Positions 49,158-56,830 of a DNA stretch of 64,000 nt are shown in pieces (position 1 is the first letter of the stretch; each line of letters begins with the position of its first letter). This DNA comes from Variovorax gossypii (GTDB lineage: Bacteria; Pseudomonadota; Gammaproteobacteria; Burkholderiales; Burkholderiaceae_C): the NCBI RefSeq assembly GCF_003965815.1, contig NZ_RXOE01000001.1:744001-808000 (forward strand). Reading direction: 5' to 3'. Made by a program: the position numbers and the translations under genes. Under the pieces are notes generated by a model, which saw nothing but the letters and a program-made list of their open reading frames with translations, was not told the DNA's origin and ran no database searches.

Positions 49158-52100
49158 TCAGGCCTGCAGCTGCGTCCAGGCCTTGTCGAGCCGCTTCACG
49201 CTCACAGGCTGCGGCGTGCGCAACTCCTGCGCGAAGAAGCTCACGCGCAACTCCTCCAGCAGCCAGCGGAATTCGAGCATGCGTTCGTCCACCACGCCCT
49301 TGCGCTCGGCCACCAGCCGCCAGTAGCGCTGGTCCTGCGGCTTCAGCTCGGCCAACTTGCCGGCGTCGCGCGCCGGGTCCGCGCGCAGCTTGTCGAGCCG
49401 CAGCACGATCGCCTTCAGATACCGCGCGAAATGCTGCAGCTGCGTCCACGGCGCCTCGGCGATGAAGCGCTTGCCGACGAGGCGCTGAAGCTGCTGCGCG
49501 GCATCCTGCACGGCGTCGGGCTGGATCTTGGTGTCCTTGATCTTGCGCGCGGCCGCGGCGTACTCGACGAGGATGGCCGACGCGAGCCGCGCCACCTCGT
49601 TGGCGATCAGCGTGAGGCGGCCACGGCCCTCCTCCAGCCGACGCTTGAACGCGAACTCGTCGGTCGGCAGCGGCTCCTGCAGGAAGGCCCGGTCGATCGC
49701 CACGTCGATGATCTGGGCGCGCAGCTCCTCCGAGGTACCCAGCGGCATGTAGGCCACCGACATCTTCTGCAGGTCGGGGATATTCTTCTCGAGATACTTG
49801 AGCGCGTCCTTGAGCTGCAGCGCGAACAGGCGGCGCAGCCCGGCCCGATGCTTCGCGGCGGCCACGGCGGGCTCGTCGAACACCTCGATGGTCACGGCGT
49901 CGCCTTCGTCGCGCAGTGCCGGGAAACCGATCAGCGACTGCGATCCGCGACGCACTTCCATCAACTCGGGCAGCTCGCCGAAGGTCCAGGCCGTGTAGCG
50001 CTGGCCGGCCGGCAGCGCGGCGGGTGCGGGTGCATCCGCCGCCTTCGAGGACTGCTTCGGGCGGTCATCCGGCGCAGCGCCGGCTGCCTTCTTCTCCGGC
50101 GACGCCTTGACGTTCAGCCCCGCCAGCGCCTGGAAGGCCCCTCGAGCCTGCGCACCCAGCTCGGCCTTCAGCGCACCGAGGTTGCGCCCCATGCCCAGCT
50201 GCCGGCCATGCTCGTCGATCACGCGCAGATTCATGAACAGGTGCGGCGCCAGCATGTCGAGCTTGAAGTCGGCGCGCTTGACGTCGATGCTGGTCATGTC
50301 GCGCACGCGCTTGAGCAGCACGTCGGTCAGCGAGCCGGTGCCGAACAGTTCGGGCACGGACAGCTCTTCCGCCAGCTTCGAGGCCGACTCGGGCAGCGGC
50401 ACCAGCCGCGAACGCGGGCGCTGCGGCAGGCTCTTGAGCAGCGCCTGGATCTTGTCCTTGAGCATGCCCGTCACCAGCCACTCGCAGCGCTCCTCGCTCA
50501 CCTGGTTGAGCACGAAGAGCGGCACGCTGACGGTGAGGCCGTCCTTCGCGTCGCCGGGCTCGTGCAGGTAGCTCGCAGCGCAATCGACGCCGCCGAGCCG
50601 CAGCGTCGGCGGAAACGACTGCGTGGTGATACCCGCCGCCTGGTGGCGCATGAGCTCGTCGCGCGTCAGGAACAGCAGGCGCGGCTGCTCCTTCGACGCC
50701 TGGCGGTACCAGTTCTCGAAGCTGGTGCCGCTGGCCACGTCGGCGGGCAGCTGTGCGTCGTAGAAGGCGAAGATCAGCTCGTCGTCGACCAGCACGTCCT
50801 GCCGGCGCGACTTGTGCTCCAGCCCCTCGACCTCGCGCACCAGCTTGCGGTTGGCCTGAAGGAACGGGAACCGGCATTCCCACTGGCCGCCGACCAGCGC
50901 CTCGCGGATGAAGATCTCGCGCGCGGCAACGGGGTCTACGCGCGTGAAGTCGACGCGCCGGCCGCTGTACACCACGAGCCCGTAGAGCGTCGCGCGCTCC
51001 AGCGCCGAGACCTGCGCGCCCTTCTTCTCCCAGTGCGGATCGAGCAGCTGCTTCTTCAGCAGGTGCCCCGCCACCTGTTCGAGCCACTGCGGCTCGATGT
51101 TGGCGATGCCGCGCCCGAAGAGCCGCGTGGTCTCGACCAGCTCGGCCGCAACGATCCAGCGCCCGGGCTTCTTCTTCAGATGCGCGCCGGGGTGCCGGTA
51201 GAACTTGATGCCGCGGGCACCGAGGTAGGCCTCGTCGTCCTCCAGCTTCCAGCCGATGTTGCCCAGCAGGCCCGACAGCATCGACATGTGCAGCGCCTCG
51301 TAGCCAGCCGGCTCGGCGTTGATGCGCCACTTGTGCTCGGTGACCACGGTGAGCAGCTGCGAATGGATGTCGCGCCATTCGCGCACGCGGCGGATGTTGA
51401 TGAAGTTCTGCCGCAGCAGCTGCTCGTACTGCCGGTTGCTGAGCTTGTGGGTGTCGCCATGGCCGCCGCGCGCGTCGGCGATCCACTTCCACAGCCGCAG
51501 GTAGCCGCTGAACTCGCTCTTCTCGTCGTCGAACTTCGAGTGCGCCTGGTCGGCCTGCTGCTGCGCGTCCATCGGGCGGTCGCGCACGTCCTGCACGCTG
51601 AGGGCCGAGGCGATGATGAGCACTTCTTCGAGCGCGCTGCGCGAGCGGGCTTCGAGAATCATTCGGCCCACGCGCGGATCCAGCGGCAGCTTCGACAGCT
51701 CGGCGCCGGTGTGCGTGAGCTCGTTGGCGTCGTCGACCGCACCCAGTTCGTTGAGCAGCTGGTAGCCGTCGGCAATCGCTCGCGGCGACGGCGCCTCCAG
51801 GAACGGGAAGCGCGCCACGTCGCCCAGGCGCAGCGACTTCATGCGCAGGATCACGCCCGCCAGCGAGGAGCGAAGGATCTCGGGGTCGGTGAAGCGCGGG
51901 CGGCCCTCGAAGTCCTTCTCGTCGTAGAGCCGGATGCAGATGCCGTTCGCCACCCGGCCGCAGCGGCCCGCGCGCTGGTTGGCGGCCGCCTGGCTGATCG
52001 GCTCGACCAGCAGCTGCTCGACCTTGCTGCGAAAGCTGTAGCGCTTGACGCGCGCCGTGCCCGTATCGATCACGTAGCGGATGCCCGGCACCGTGAGCGA

Positions 52101-53018
52101 GGTCTCGGCCACGTTGGTTGCGAGCACGATGCGGCGGCCCGTGTGGCCGTCGAAGATGCGGTCCTGCTCGGGGCCCGACAGCCGCGCGAACAGCGGCAGC
52201 ACTTCGGCGCTGCGCAGCAGCGGCTGGTGGCTCAGGTGGCGGCGCAGATGGTCGGCCGCCTCGCGGATCTCGCGCTCGCCGGGCAGGAAGACGAGGATGT
52301 CGCCCGCGTTGTGCGGATCGCGCCAGAGCTCGTCGACCGCGTCGGCGATGGCGTCGTTCAGGTCGTGCTCGCGCGATTCCTCGAAGGGCCGGTAACGCTG
52401 CTCCACCGGGTAGGTGCGGCCCGAGACGAAGATGGTGGGCGCCGGGCCTTTCGCCGAGGCGAAGTGCTGCGCGAAGCGGTCGGCGTCGATGGTGGCCGAG
52501 GTGACGATGACTTTCAGGTCAGGCCTGCGCGGCAGGATCTCGCGCAGGTAGCCCAGCAGGAAGTCGATGTTCAGCGAGCGCTCGTGGGCCTCGTCGATGA
52601 TGAGCGTGTCGTAGGCCTTCAGCAGCGGATCGGTCTGCGTCTCGGCCAGCAGGATGCCGTCGGTCATCAGCTTGACGGAGGCGTCGCGCGACAGGCGGTC
52701 CTGGAAGCGCACCTTGAAGCCGACCACGTCGCCCAGCGGCGTCTTCAGCTCTTCGGCGATGCGCTTGGCCACCGAGCTCGCGGCGATGCGGCGCGGCTGC
52801 GTGTGGCCGATGAGCCGGCCCTTGCCCGGCTCGGCATTGAGCTTGCCGCGGCCCAGCGCGAGGGCGATCTTCGGCAGTTGCGTGGTCTTGCCCGAGCCCG
52901 TCTCTCCGCAGACGATCACGACCTGGTGCGCCGAGATGGCGGCCATGATCTCGTCGCGCCTGCTCGATACAGGAAGCGATTCGGGAAATTCGATGCGAAG
53001 TGGTGTGGTGGTCGTCAA
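49158..53018 (-). CDS. hrpA: ATP-dependent RNA helicase HrpA (DEAH box)
   Basis: A 1286-aa DEAH helicase, close to E. coli HrpA (1300 aa). Walker A is CGETGSGKTTQLPK near residues 37-49; motif II is DEAH (LIIDEAHERSLN); motif III is SAT (IVTSATID); motif VI is QRAGRCGR. The winged-helix, ratchet and OB-fold domains and the HrpA-specific C-terminal DUF3418 region follow. HrpA resolves stalled or collided ribosomes and affects mRNA processing. It begins MTTTTPLRIEFPESLP. Confidence 0.97.
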   Translation of the reverse strand: MTTTTPLRIEFPESLPVSSRRDEIMAAISAHQVVIVCGETGSGKTTQLPKIALALGRGKLNAEPGKGRLIGHTQPRRIAASSVAKRIAEELKTPLGDVVGFKVRFQDRLSRDASVKLMTDGILLAETQTDPLLKAYDTLIIDEAHERSLNIDFLLGYLREILPRRPDLKVIVTSATIDADRFAQHFASAKGPAPTIFVSGRTYPVEQRYRPFEESREHDLNDAIADAVDELWRDPHNAGDILVFLPGEREIREAADHLRRHLSHQPLLRSAEVLPLFARLSGPEQDRIFDGHTGRRIVLATNVAETSLTVPGIRYVIDTGTARVKRYSFRSKVEQLLVEPISQAAANQRAGRCGRVANGICIRLYDEKDFEGRPRFTDPEILRSSLAGVILRMKSLRLGDVARFPFLEAPSPRAIADGYQLLNELGAVDDANELTHTGAELSKLPLDPRVGRMILEARSRSALEEVLIIASALSVQDVRDRPMDAQQQADQAHSKFDDEKSEFSGYLRLWKWIADARGGHGDTHKLSNRQYEQLLRQNFINIRRVREWRDIHSQLLTVVTEHKWRINAEPAGYEALHMSMLSGLLGNIGWKLEDDEAYLGARGIKFYRHPGAHLKKKPGRWIVAAELVETTRLFGRGIANIEPQWLEQVAGHLLKKQLLDPHWEKKGAQVSALERATLYGLVVYSGRRVDFTRVDPVAAREIFIREALVGGQWECRFPFLQANRKLVREVEGLEHKSRRQDVLVDDELIFAFYDAQLPADVASGTSFENWYRQASKEQPRLLFLTRDELMRHQAAGITTQSFPPTLRLGGVDCAASYLHEPGDAKDGLTVSVPLFVLNQVSEERCEWLVTGMLKDKIQALLKSLPQRPRSRLVPLPESASKLAEELSVPELFGTGSLTDVLLKRVRDMTSIDVKRADFKLDMLAPHLFMNLRVIDEHGRQLGMGRNLGALKAELGAQARGAFQALAGLNVKASPEKKAAGAAPDDRPKQSSKAADAPAPAALPAGQRYTAWTFGELPELMEVRRGSQSLIGFPALRDEGDAVTIEVFDEPAVAAAKHRAGLRRLFALQLKDALKYLEKNIPDLQKMSVAYMPLGTSEELRAQIIDVAIDRAFLQEPLPTDEFAFKRRLEEGRGRLTLIANEVARLASAILVEYAAAARKIKDTKIQPDAVQDAAQQLQRLVGKRFIAEAPWTQLQHFARYLKAIVLRLDKLRADPARDAGKLAELKPQDQRYWRLVAERKGVVDERMLEFRWLLEELRVSFFAQELRTPQPVSVKRLDKAWTQLQA

Positions 53019-53432: not shown

Positions 53433-55424
53433 ATGTCCAAAGACATCCGCTCCCAACTGCATGCCGAGCTCGCCGAGCGCACTCGCCATCTGCAAACCGT
53501 CGCCGAAGCACTGAAGACCGAGCTCTTCGGCATCGACGACATCATCGATCGCGTGATCGATTCGCTTCGCGCCTGGTATGTGCTGCCGCAGCTCATCAGC
53601 CGCCCCGTCATCGTCTGCCTCTGGGGTCTCACCGGCACCGGCAAGACGCAGCTGGTGCGCAGGCTCGCGCAGCATCTGGGCTTCTACGACCGCTTCATCG
53701 AAGTGCAGATGGACGGCTTCAGCCATGGCTCGGGCTATCACAGCGGCGGCTCCATCTCGGCCATGCTGGCCGAGTCGGGCATTGCCGAAGGCATGCCCGG
53801 CATCCTGGTGCTCGACGAGTTCCAGCGCTTCCGCACGGTGGAAGGCAACGGCAGCGACGCCAAGGTCGAGCGCTACCAGGACGTGTGGGCGCTGCTGTCC
53901 GACGGCCGCCTGCCGCCCGCGCTCTCGATGCTCGGCGAGATCGAGTCCTCGCTCGCGTACGCCGAGTACACGCAGGACCGCGACGGCACCGAAAAGAAAA
54001 AGGAAGACAAGAAGCGCAAGCTGCACCTGTCGCCCTGGGAGGCGCGCGAGGTGAAGCGCTGCCTGAAGCTCTCCGAGACGCTGCTGCAGATCATGGCGTG
54101 GAAGCCCGCCGAGGTGCACGCGCGCCTGCGCGCCTTCCGCGACACCCAGCAGAGCTGGGAAACCGACTACAGCAAGCTGCTGGTGTTCGTCTCGGGCAAC
54201 CTCGACGAGATGTACGCCGAGACGGCCCAGCGCGTCGAGGACTGCGACACCGACGCCGACATCTTCCACGAGCTGACGAAGAAGCTCTCGGTCATCGACG
54301 TGAAGAAGGCGCTGGCCGAACGCTTCCGCCCCGAGCAGATCGCCCGCCTGGGCAACAACCACGTGATCTACCCCTCGTTCAACCGCGCGACCTACGTGCG
54401 CCTGATCCTGTCGATCTGCGACCGCTACGTGGCCGAGATCCAGGAAAGCTCCGGCGTGCGCTTCGTGCTGGACGCGAGCGTGTACGAGCAGATCTACGCC
54501 AACGCCGTGTTTCCGGCGCAGGGCACGCGTCCGCTGTTCTCGTCGATCCACGCAATCCTGAGCGCCACGCTGGTCAACGCCGCGCTGTGGGCGCTGGAGC
54601 AAGGCGCCAACGGCAGCGAACCCGTGTGGCTCACGCTGGACGCGGGCGTGTCGGCCATCACCGCGAAGTACCGCAAGGCGCGCCGCCAGTTTCCGGTCAC
54701 GCTGGAGCTGAACCGCCTCAAGCAGCGCTCGAGCGAGGACTTCCGCGCCCTGCTCGCCGTGCACGAGGCCGGTCACGGCGTGGTGTACGGCCTGCTCTTC
54801 GCCCGCGCGCCGCAGGAGATCAAGATCAACGTGGCCTCGTTCGAGGGCGGCTACAACAGCTACGAGCAGCGCAAGGCCTGGTCGAGGGAGAACCTGCGCG
54901 ACCACATCTGCGTGAGCCTCGCGGGCCGCGCCGCCGAGCAGCTGGTGTTCGGCGAGCAGGCCTGCACCACGGGCGCCACGCAGGACTTCATGCAGGCGAC
55001 CGCCCAGGCCGCGCAGTACGTGCGCCACTTCGCCTTCGGCACGCGCCTGAGCCGCACCGACGTGGCGAACGACCCGAACGACAACGTCAACACCGACATC
55101 GCCGCGACCACCCCCGAGATCGAGGCGCTGCTGGAGCAGGAGCACGCCCGCGCGCTCGCGCTGCTGGACGCCCATACGCCGGCGCTGATGGCGGTGGTCG
55201 ACGCGCTGCTGCGCCACGGTTCGATCGCCCCATCGGAGCTGGCCGGGATGCTCGGGCTGCCGGACCCGGTGTCCGGTGCCGGCGGCGCGGCCACGGACGC
55301 CTACGCGGCGCTGCTGGCGAGCTTCCGCGCCGATCGTGTCGGCCTGCCGCCGCCTTCGCCGCCCGGCGGCGGTGGCGGCGCCATCCCGGCGAGCGCGGCC
55401 CGCGTGCTGCGCGCGATCGCCTGA
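53433..55424 (+). CDS. AAA+ ATPase fused to FtsH-type (M41) zinc metallopeptidase, soluble
   Basis: A 663-aa protein without signal peptide or membrane helix. The ATPase (about 30-380) has Walker A GLTGTGKT (65-72), Walker B ILVLDEF (124-130), sensor-1 N256 (VFVSGN), an arginine-finger segment ERFRPEQIARLG (296-307) and a sensor-2 stretch GTRPLFSSI with R366. These last two are ClpB-D2/ClpX-like, not FtsH-like. A Lys-rich insert lies at 186-196. The C-terminal part (about 435-605) is an M41 peptidase: zinc site H444-E445-A-G-H448, third ligand D518 in TTGATQDF, and LAGRAAEQLVFGE. The last 60 residues are Gly/Pro-rich. The ATG at 53433 is preferred; a GTG at 53382 would add 17 residues. Confidence 0.88.
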   Translation: MSKDIRSQLHAELAERTRHLQTVAEALKTELFGIDDIIDRVIDSLRAWYVLPQLISRPVIVCLWGLTGTGKTQLVRRLAQHLGFYDRFIEVQMDGFSHGSGYHSGGSISAMLAESGIAEGMPGILVLDEFQRFRTVEGNGSDAKVERYQDVWALLSDGRLPPALSMLGEIESSLAYAEYTQDRDGTEKKKEDKKRKLHLSPWEAREVKRCLKLSETLLQIMAWKPAEVHARLRAFRDTQQSWETDYSKLLVFVSGNLDEMYAETAQRVEDCDTDADIFHELTKKLSVIDVKKALAERFRPEQIARLGNNHVIYPSFNRATYVRLILSICDRYVAEIQESSGVRFVLDASVYEQIYANAVFPAQGTRPLFSSIHAILSATLVNAALWALEQGANGSEPVWLTLDAGVSAITAKYRKARRQFPVTLELNRLKQRSSEDFRALLAVHEAGHGVVYGLLFARAPQEIKINVASFEGGYNSYEQRKAWSRENLRDHICVSLAGRAAEQLVFGEQACTTGATQDFMQATAQAAQYVRHFAFGTRLSRTDVANDPNDNVNTDIAATTPEIEALLEQEHARALALLDAHTPALMAVVDALLRHGSIAPSELAGMLGLPDPVSGAGGAATDAYAALLASFRADRVGLPPPSPPGGGGGAIPASAARVLRAIA

Positions 55425-55483
55425 TTCGGCCCGGTCGGGCCGGGTCAGGCAAATGGCTTTTCATGAATGCACAATCACGCCCC

Positions 55484-56830
55484 ATGTCCACCGTCTTCAA
55501 TTTCACCTTCGTGCCCTGGTTCCGCTCGGTCGCGCCTTACATCCATACGCACCGCGGTAAGACTTTCGTGGTCGGGCTCGCGGGCGAGGCGATCGCGGCG
55601 GGCAAGCTGCAGAACATCGCGCAGGACCTGGCGCTGATCCAGAGCATGGGCGTGAAGATCGTGCTGGTGCATGGCTTCAGGCCGCAGGTCAACGAGCAGC
55701 TCGCGGCCAAGGGGCACGAGGCGAAGTATTCGCACGGCATCCGCATCACCGACGAGGTGGCGCTCGACTCCGCCCAGGAAGCCGCCGGCCAGCTGCGCTA
55801 CGAGATCGAGGCCGCTTTCAGCCAGGGCCTGCCCAACACGCCGATGGCGGGCTCCACGGTCCGGGTGATCTCGGGCAACTTCATCACCGCGCGCCCGGTG
55901 GGCGTGGTCGACGGGGTGGACTTCAAGCATTCGGGCCTGGTGCGCAAGGTGGACGCGGCCGGCATCCGCCGCACGCTGGATTTCGGCGCAATGGTGCTGA
56001 TGTCGCCCTTCGGCTTCTCGCCCACCGGCGAAGCCTTCAACCTGACGATGGAAGAAGTCGCCACCAGCGTCGCCATCTCGCTGCAGGCCGACAAGCTGAT
56101 CTTCCTGACCGAGATTCCGGGTATCCGCATTGACAGCGAGCTGCCCGAGAGCGACGACAACCCGATCGACACCGAGCTGCCGCTGGACGCCGCCGAGAAG
56201 CTGCTGGCCTCTCTGCCGCCGCCGCAGAAGCCGACGGACACCGCCTTCTATCTGCAGCACTGCGTGAAGGCCTGCAAGGCCGGCGTGGAGCGCAACCACA
56301 TCCTGCCATTTGCCCTCGATGGCTCGCTGCTGCTGGAGGTGTACGTGCACGACGGCGTCGGCACGATGGTGATCGACGAGAAGCTCGAGAGCCTGCGCGA
56401 GGCCTCGGTGGACGACATCGGCGGCATCCTGCAGCTGATCGAGCCCTTCGAGCGCGACGGCACGCTGGTCAAGCGCGACCGCACCGAGATCGAGCGCGAC
56501 ATCCACCAGTACACGGTGGTCGAGCACGACGGCGTGATCTTCGGCTGCGCGGCGCTCTACCCGTACCCCGAGGCGCGCACCGCCGAGATGGCCGCGCTCA
56601 CGGTGTCGCCGCAATCGCAGTCGCAGGGCGACGGCGAGCGCATCCTCAAGCACATCGAGCACCGCGCCAAGGCCATGGGCCTGGAAAGCATCTTCGTGCT
56701 CACCACGCGCACCATGCACTGGTTCCTCAAGCGCGGCTTCCAGCAGGTCAACCCCGACTGGCTGCCCGAGGCGCGCAAGCGCAAGTACAACTGGGACCGC
56801 AAGAGCCTGGTGCTGGTCAAGAAGATCTAA
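55484..56830 (+). CDS. argA: Amino-acid N-acetyltransferase (N-acetylglutamate synthase)
   Basis: A 448-aa enzyme for the first step of arginine synthesis. An amino-acid-kinase-like domain (about 1-300: RSVAPYIHTHRGKTFVVGLAG, VLVHGFRPQVNEQL) is followed by a GNAT domain (about 305-448: GGILQLIEPFERDGTLVKRDR in parts, MAALTVSPQSQSQGDGERIL). The ATG at 55484 places the N-terminus as in E. coli ArgA (443 aa); an ATG at 55463 would add seven residues. The kinase-like domain usually mediates arginine feedback inhibition. Confidence 0.96.
   Translation: MSTVFNFTFVPWFRSVAPYIHTHRGKTFVVGLAGEAIAAGKLQNIAQDLALIQSMGVKIVLVHGFRPQVNEQLAAKGHEAKYSHGIRITDEVALDSAQEAAGQLRYEIEAAFSQGLPNTPMAGSTVRVISGNFITARPVGVVDGVDFKHSGLVRKVDAAGIRRTLDFGAMVLMSPFGFSPTGEAFNLTMEEVATSVAISLQADKLIFLTEIPGIRIDSELPESDDNPIDTELPLDAAEKLLASLPPPQKPTDTAFYLQHCVKACKAGVERNHILPFALDGSLLLEVYVHDGVGTMVIDEKLESLREASVDDIGGILQLIEPFERDGTLVKRDRTEIERDIHQYTVVEHDGVIFGCAALYPYPEARTAEMAALTVSPQSQSQGDGERILKHIEHRAKAMGLESIFVLTTRTMHWFLKRGFQQVNPDWLPEARKRKYNWDRKSLVLVKKI

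Follow-up and report, generated by a model that had tools for sequence, protein, structure and literature searches.

M41 zinc peptidases are best known from membrane-anchored proteases with a classical AAA domain, and Clp-type unfoldases use a GYVG pore loop. The accessible text of PMC12994072 describes the zinc ligands of M41 peptidases, including the aspartate of YME1L, and the HCLR clade of AAA+ proteins. Proteases are also documented in large phages (PMC13282480, PMC9723584), with no FtsH in either main text, and passages of PMC9723584 additionally report Clp proteins. As far as the available parts of the two papers go, an FtsH-like protein of Pseudomonas phage MIJ3 is homologous to that of PA5oct (PMC6892783), and an Ochrobactrum jumbo-phage replication protein gives an M41-related HHpred match (PMC7139368). 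Here we describe a gene that combines an ATPase of Clp D2 kinship with an M41 peptidase, at positions 53433-55424 of a 64,000-nucleotide window (the whole stretch of DNA analysed: positions 744,001 to 808,000 of contig NZ_RXOE01000001.1 of Variovorax gossypii, GCF_003965815.1). Its 663-residue product is labelled P0001.

Among the literature matches listed, in a survey covering few subscription papers and no bioRxiv preprints, none describes a Clp-D2-M41 fusion, and the hybrid family is apparently undescribed; we treat it as a new family of AAA+ proteases, distinct from FtsH and from Clp alike. Judged from its sequences, it is a conserved and probably active AAA+ protease family, and a role as an energy-dependent protease is plausible. 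The reading that we favour, and consider likely, is that of a soluble single-polypeptide AAA+ zinc protease from a mainly viral family, in which a ClpB-D2-type ring would feed an M41 ring. A sequence-only reading of the window had located a full set of ATPase and peptidase motifs in this frame, and each lies at the residues it gave: GLTGTGKT at 65-72, ILVLDEF at 124-130, N256, ERFRPEQ at 296-302, GTRPL at 364-368, HEAGH at 444-448 and D518. Conservation was counted over 67 homologues (alignment A4), which include 10 added Burkholderiales proteins and 48 viral rows. Six of 63 non-redundant frames were omitted from A4: two cut by contig ends (L128, L155), one with an incomplete N-terminus (L154), one with the ATPase only (L177) and two true Clp ATPases (L179:13058, L181). 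The gene and its parts are as follows.

53433-55424, plus strand: whole gene, encoding a ClpB-D2-type AAA+ ATPase with an M41 zinc peptidase fused to it; open frame from the ATG at 53433 to the stop, 663 residues plus stop
53457-54695, plus strand: AAA+ module including the small domain, about residues 9-421; superposed by VIA-align on Skd3 7ttr_D, top family hidden Markov model (HMM) score with ClpB D2
53625-53648, plus strand: Walker A, GLTGTGKT, residues 65-72, with K71 and T72
53715-53756, plus strand: position of pore loop 1, residues 95-108, from the alignment with Clp D2; canonical GYVG loop missing
53802-53822, plus strand: Walker B, ILVLDEF, residues 124-130, with D128; E129 in at least 90% of the 67
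53910-54173, plus strand: residues 160-247, an insert that the alignment puts at the position of pore loop 2; helices in the model
54198-54200, plus strand: sensor-1 asparagine N256
54246-54269, plus strand: DTDADIFH, residues 272-279, between sensor 1 and the arginine finger; 90% or more of the 67 aligned members have A275 and D276
54321-54350, plus strand: arginine-finger segment RFRPEQIARL with R305, aligned with FRPEF(L/I)NR of ClpB D2
54522-54536, plus strand: sensor 2, GTRPL, with G364 (invariant in 67 of 67) and R366
54732-55238, plus strand: M41 peptidase domain, residues 434-602; Pfam PF01434, E 1.3e-19, 71.2 bits against a cut-off of 29.9
54762-54776, plus strand: HEAGH zinc and catalytic motif, residues 444-448
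54984-54986, plus strand: D518, predicted third zinc ligand by homology to the YME1L aspartate ligand as given in the accessible text of PMC12994072
55275-55421, plus strand: Gly/Pro/Ala-rich variable C-terminal tail, residues 615-663, poorly conserved; confidence of the model (predicted local distance difference test, pLDDT) in blocks of 57-84, minimum at about 640-650

K71, T72, D128, N256, R305, R366, H444, E445, H448 and D518 are invariant in all 67 aligned homologues. The constancy of the Walker, sensor and arginine-finger residues argues for a working ATP cycle, and that of H444, E445, H448 and D518 for a working zinc site. The chain contains one Walker A motif and one AAA module.

The nearest kin of the ATPase are the Clp D2 domains, not FtsH. 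An HMM built from the 67 ATPase parts was compared with seven reference groups, whose names were assigned from their motifs. ClpB D2 scored highest (56.7 bits), followed by ClpA D2 (39.2), Lon (29.4), ClpV (28.5), ClpX (25.1) and HslU (22.7, one sequence), and the best of 25 FtsH-type AAA domains came last (18.4). In local profile-profile comparison the match to ClpB D2 extends over 278 columns (E 4.8e-13), that to FtsH over 84 columns, from Walker A to Walker B only (E 4.8e-9); ClpA and Lon reach 3.7e-9 each, and ClpV and ClpX are poorer than FtsH. These E-values single out ClpB D2 and leave the other groups unranked. An ATPase tree of 63 rows, sampling 24 of the 67 family rows and, for most reference groups larger than six rows, alternate rows, places the 24 family rows in one group (support of 99 in the Shimodaira-Hasegawa-like approximate likelihood ratio test, SH-aLRT). 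This group joins the D2 domains of ClpA, ClpB and ClpV and phage Clp proteins (SH-aLRT 90), apart from FtsH, Lon and ClpX.

In P0001 itself, Pfam recognises the generic AAA family PF00004 at residues 61-146 (E 4.5e-7, 30.8 bits, above the cut-off of 21.2) and gives no match to ClpB_D2-small (PF10431) at E 1. The ClpA and ClpB models of NCBIfam match the ATPase part and its FtsH model only residues 428-600, all far under the curated cut-offs. FtsH-type proteins lead a PDB sequence search over the C-terminal part only; the N-terminal part has weak matches to ClpE and ClpB (E 0.01-0.1), and also to Lon and to AAA proteins of the proteasome. An AlphaFold2 model built on the 67-sequence alignment has a pLDDT of 86.8 and a predicted template modelling score of 0.83; an earlier model from 28 close homologues (alignment A1) had a pLDDT of 57 and was not used. 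VIA-align superposes residues 10-420 on Skd3 7ttr_D (Z 22.0, 301 residues, root-mean-square deviation, rmsd, 3.4), with Skd3, ClpB, ClpC and ClpA all at Z 20-22 and rmsd 3.3-4.6 on the ATPase part, and residues 432-618 on AFG3L2 6nyy_F (Z 20.6, 183 residues, rmsd 3.4). In a viral structure library, giant viruses supply the top three matches, all M41 or FtsH-like proteins (rmsd 11-13); two phage proteins, a Clp ATPase and an M41 protein of 214 residues, each match one part. The tree, the superpositions and the HMM scores bear out the proposal of a ClpB-D2-type rather than FtsH-type ATPase joined to an M41 peptidase.

The peptidase half is found by Pfam in all 67 members at E 0.001. In a tree of M41 domains the family members stand together and separate from FtsH (SH-aLRT 93 and 96), a phylogeny that the earlier reading had named as a check and one that fits a single fusion event. 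The chain also appears soluble, as had been proposed: the maximum 19-residue hydropathy of P0001 is 1.56, below the FtsH of the same genome (2.09) and that of phage PA5oct (P0002, 3.21). Across the family it exceeds 1.6 in six of 67 members, with a maximum of 1.85, and the three highest values fall at residues 354, 398 and 440, not at the N-terminus. The further suggestion that the peptidase had lost a membrane anchor describes one possible history among others. No tree here is rooted, and the ATPase falls with soluble Clp proteins, so a history in which a soluble Clp-type ATPase gained an M41 domain fits equally well.

Most of the homologues found lie on uncultivated viral contigs, some of them of huge phages. 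A scan of IMG/VR with alignment A2 returned 6 loci, and one with A3, to which five of the first six viral loci had been added, returned 64 including those six, several of them near-identical; both scans, like that of genome_contigs described below, use short peptide patterns, and divergent relatives are missed. Both domains are present in 62 of the 64 loci, some of which are incomplete (L128, L154, L155, L172); the exceptions are L177, with the ATPase only, and L181, an ordinary Clp ATPase. L177 (7989-9305) encodes a 439-residue member, and no M41 domain was seen by eye in three forward frames over the 1.4 kb to the contig end. Three hallmark families were sought in 40 viral records chosen from the 64-locus scan, 18 of which are at least 200 kb long and the longest 548 kb. 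Terminase (PF03237) was found in 12 (11 over the cut-off) and in 6 of 14 cellular controls, tail sheath (PF04984) in 7 (2 over the cut-off) and in 3 controls, and T4-type capsid (PF07068) in 10 (9 over the cut-off) and in none of the controls. Together, 11 of 40 records pass a cut-off and 15 of 40 reach E 0.001. For between 9 and 11 of the records the support for a phage is good. Twenty-five of the 40 have none of the three families at E 0.001, which counts against a mainly viral family; records beyond the supported ones are viral by their IMG/VR label, and these may be fragmentary, too divergent or of another nature.

In PHROGs v4, tried with four proteins, no family spans the fusion; phrog_4871 covers stretches of the ATPase and phrog_30773 the M41 part, while two further families match short pieces of the ATPase. 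No INPHARED record had a place covering 80% of the query for P0001, L113, L122 or L156, and single-protein viral scans gave no relative for L115 and only its own contig for L116. Clustering of the neighbours of 49 viral loci (BLASTP 1e-5, some loci cut short) revealed no partner, and no cluster occurs in more than five of the 49.

Several viral loci have features of their own. One viral contig carries a ClpB-type ATPase (L179:13058-14968) a few kb from a ClpB-M41 hybrid. Near another hybrid, on a viral-labelled contig (L149:13753-16021), lie what we take to be ABC-transporter permease and ATPase genes, and genes like them occur in 4 of the 49 loci; such contigs are either unusual phages or mislabelled. 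L111 and L112 are short viral-labelled contigs (14.7 and 15.6 kb) with a 54%-identical copy, whose nearby genes look phage-structural by eye, with toxin-antitoxin-like genes also on L111. In phage PA5oct (L117), Hsp20, ClpS, an 'FtsH-interacting integral membrane protein' and a membrane FtsH are encoded within about 5 kb, a small proteostasis cluster.

Cellular copies are patchy. Scanning genome_contigs with P0001 returned 32 loci, of which 29 are full-length (22 in Variovorax, 5 in Comamonas, one each in Ramlibacter and Cupriavidus) and three match one part only; this single-protein scan is also the one that covered cellular homologues outside Pseudomonadota. Among 61 related genomes the full-length protein occurs in 11 of 37 of the same genus, its own included, and in none of the other 24; the remaining matches in the 61 are M41 stretches, and those read are FtsH-type proteins. 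The tallies for family, class and phylum are lower bounds, because scoring took in no more than the three or four best first-look candidates of each genome. In the bacterial family of the window at least 31 of 299 genomes match, spread over 21 of the 141 genera (alignment A2). At class level (A1) at least 3 of 369 genomes carry a full-length copy, namely its own and two of one gammaproteobacterial family, and at phylum level (A2) at least 2 of 398, both Variovorax. Within that gammaproteobacterial family, 13 of 63 genomes carry the hybrid gene (A2), and in L086 and L087 it lies between presumed hisF and hisE genes, just 5' of what we take to be tatA and tatB. Among the matches in the family of the window, at least two (G1037 and G1158) are broken or fragmentary and G1178 has a stop inside the matched stretch; the G1037 copy (C22:21501-23373) is split over two frames.

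Plasmid records yielded no place covering 80% of the query for either P0001 or L087. On plasmids of Rhizobium (L057:3693-5669) and Bosea (L059:3663-5720) there are classical-AAA M41 proteins that look soluble. A metallophosphoesterase gene lies just downstream of each, directly or one small gene on, and the two genes possibly form a unit.

In Variovorax the gene has a constant setting, between two neighbours that are named provisionally from their sequences.

49158-53018, minus strand: upstream divergent neighbour, presumably an HrpA-like DEAH helicase; adjacent in 21 of the 22 loci of Variovorax, all but L010, whose contig is too short
55463-56830, plus strand: downstream neighbour, presumably ArgA-like; follows the gene in all 22 loci of Variovorax and, at a greater distance, in Ramlibacter (L020)

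These constant neighbours fit vertical inheritance within the genus. The start codon is supported by an ATG 64-74 codons 5' of Walker A in all 22 Variovorax loci of the genome_contigs scan; an upstream alignment of 15 Variovorax sequences led to no promoter claim. The ratio of nonsynonymous to synonymous substitution rates (dN/dS), taken pairwise, is 0.13, 0.19 and 0.28 against three Variovorax relatives and 0.42 against Ramlibacter. The 29 full-length homologues among 32 loci, the invariant catalytic residues, the dN/dS values and the conserved start argue that the frame is not a product of chance; at the hrpA-argA locus of Variovorax the gene is under selection and stably passed on.

In a tree of the 67 family rows, the 10 Burkholderiales rows form one clade (support 95), with L111 as its sister, and the 9 gammaproteobacterial rows form a second (100); each clade is nested within the 47 viral rows. 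The tree has no root and composition is uneven, and it requires no more than two changes between cell and virus. Because diversity is greater on the viral side, we infer that the two cellular clades stem from two entries from phages into bacterial chromosomes.

This distribution also invites, whatever the mechanism, a role in conflict between phage and bacterium, the protease being either a phage tool against host or defence proteins that bacteria have kept or a bacterial defence protease copied by phages. We consider this possible, although unlikely. The predominance of viral contigs and the patchiness of the cellular copies would suit it, as would weak local PADLOC matches, the best to DolB (E 9.8e-6), which we take to denote the Dodola system. 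However, the DolB match is confined to residues 17-133, no conserved neighbour was seen in the viral loci, and in Variovorax the gene sits between hrpA-like and argA-like genes.

The ATPase is remodelled in comparison with Clp proteins. In an alignment with nine Clp D2 domains, the whole GAPPGYVG pore-1 stretch is lacking and GYVG is present in none of the 67 members, although an aromatic residue is retained in the short pore-1 loop of 54. Between the DGR turn and sensor 1, which we take to be the pore-loop-2 position, the 67 members carry an insert of 85-182 residues, against 11 residues in the nine Clp D2 domains. Between sensor 1 and the arginine finger, presumably where ClpA and ClpX carry the ClpP-docking loop, the stretch that aligns with the region of the IGL/IGF-type loop reads DxDADxFH in the family. 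With the GYVG loop of Clp-type unfoldases absent from every member, a caution that goes beyond the earlier reading, processive threading is not assured.

Under the favoured reading of a soluble one-chain protease, a ClpB-D2-type ring, presumably a hexamer, would hydrolyse ATP and pull or feed substrate into an M41 peptidase ring on the same chains, placed behind it as in FtsH. With motor and peptidase on the same chains, neither ClpP nor a membrane would be needed. Grip on the substrate would probably come from the helical insert standing in for pore loop 2 and from the short remnant of pore loop 1. A bolder version, which we put forward tentatively and with less than even confidence, is a one-chain protease born in huge phages, with a Clp-D2 motor free of GYVG and ClpP docking, a covalent M41 chamber and a grip formed by the pore-loop-2 insert; it would rework the host proteome and would have been domesticated by bacteria at least twice.

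The same departures could instead belong to a protein that is not a processive degrader, one whose ATPase opens or remodels a particular complex while M41 makes limited cuts, in effect an ATP-controlled maturation protease. In its favour stand the absence of GYVG throughout, the large pore-loop-2 insert with its very variable length, and a member, L177, with an ATPase and no M41 domain. We nevertheless regard it as rather improbable, given that the residues of the nucleotide cycle (K71, T72, D128, N256, R305 and R366) are invariant, that the aromatic residue of the short loop is kept in most members, and that, as in FtsH, M41 comes after the small domain.

Several results weigh against the kinship of the ATPase with Clp proteins. 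The ATPase tree carries a long-branch warning from the program. Over the 67 members, Pfam finds M41 in 67, the generic AAA (PF00004) in 52, AAA_14 in 43, ClpB_D2-small in 39, Torsin in 17 and AAA_2 in 10, with the generic family matched more often than ClpB_D2-small or AAA_2. The profile-profile E-value of the FtsH AAA domain is about that of ClpA and Lon and better than that of ClpV and ClpX, although far behind ClpB D2. The fit of ClpX to the model nearly equals that of ClpB (VIA-align Z 20.4), and whole-chain FtsH 3kds_F shares the top Z of 22.0, at rmsd 6.9. FtsH and its kin also hold the top Foldseek ranks, at whole-chain rmsd of about 10-14, where they lead because both domains are shared.

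Of these results, the Foldseek ranking and the PF00004 matches would suit a diverged soluble FtsH whose AAA domain only looks Clp-like, as would the clearly FtsH-type M41 domain and the soluble-looking classical-AAA M41 proteins of the Rhizobium and Bosea plasmids. We consider it highly improbable. FtsH AAA domains stand last of the seven groups by the family HMM, their local profile match is less than a third as long as that of ClpB D2, the alignment pairs the RFRPEQxxR and GxRP segments with ClpB D2, and the tree sets FtsH apart; a classical soluble FtsH is largely contradicted by HMM, profile, alignment and tree alike. A relative of Lon was likewise rejected, as P0001 has no Pfam match to a Lon peptidase at E 1, the NCBIfam lon model touches only ATPase residues 15-83 (E 0.042), and the ATPase HMM scores lower with Lon than with ClpB D2. 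A decaying or inactive remnant, to which broken relatives such as G1037 and the G1158 fragment might point, is hardly credible and was rejected on the low dN/dS within Variovorax, the invariant active sites and a frame that is open, beside argA, in all 22 Variovorax loci.

An M41 peptidase on a soluble Clp-type motor shows that motor and chamber can be recombined in nature across AAA+ clades, and the family allows the dependence of threading on the GYVG loop to be tested. For some uncultivated huge phages it may supply a self-contained protease, beside the Clp and FtsH proteins of large phages noted in the accessible parts of PMC9723584 and PMC6892783. Variovorax offers a culturable handle on the hybrid protease.

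Set against described systems, the hybrid has counterparts for each of its halves. The FtsH-like proteins of phages MIJ3 and PA5oct, in the available text of PMC6892783, are likewise M41 proteases encoded by jumbo phages, but the PA5oct protein is a membrane FtsH with a classical AAA domain. The L057 and L059 plasmid proteins share the M41 domain and the absence of an apparent N-terminal anchor, judged by eye; unlike the hybrid they have a classical AAA module, and their M41 domains fall outside the group of the hybrid family. Lon also unites ATPase and peptidase on one soluble chain, but the peptidase of the hybrid is an M41 zinc enzyme rather than a Ser-Lys one, and the Lon ATPase scores below ClpB D2. 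With FtsH, YME1 and AFG3L2 the hybrid shares an M41 domain directly after the AAA small domain on one chain and the HExxH motif with a distal aspartate; it differs in an AAA domain nearest to Clp D2, in having no transmembrane segment, and in the helical insert at the pore-loop-2 position. With the D2 domains of ClpB, Hsp104, Skd3, ClpA and ClpC it shares the large and small AAA+ subdomains, the FRPEQxxR arginine finger and the GxRP sensor 2. In contrast to the two-module build of ClpB/Hsp100 proteins, with an N-domain and, in ClpB, an M-domain, it has a single AAA module, and relative to the Clp D2 domains it carries DxDADxFH at the ClpP-docking-loop stretch, a pore without GYVG and a covalently attached M41 peptidase.

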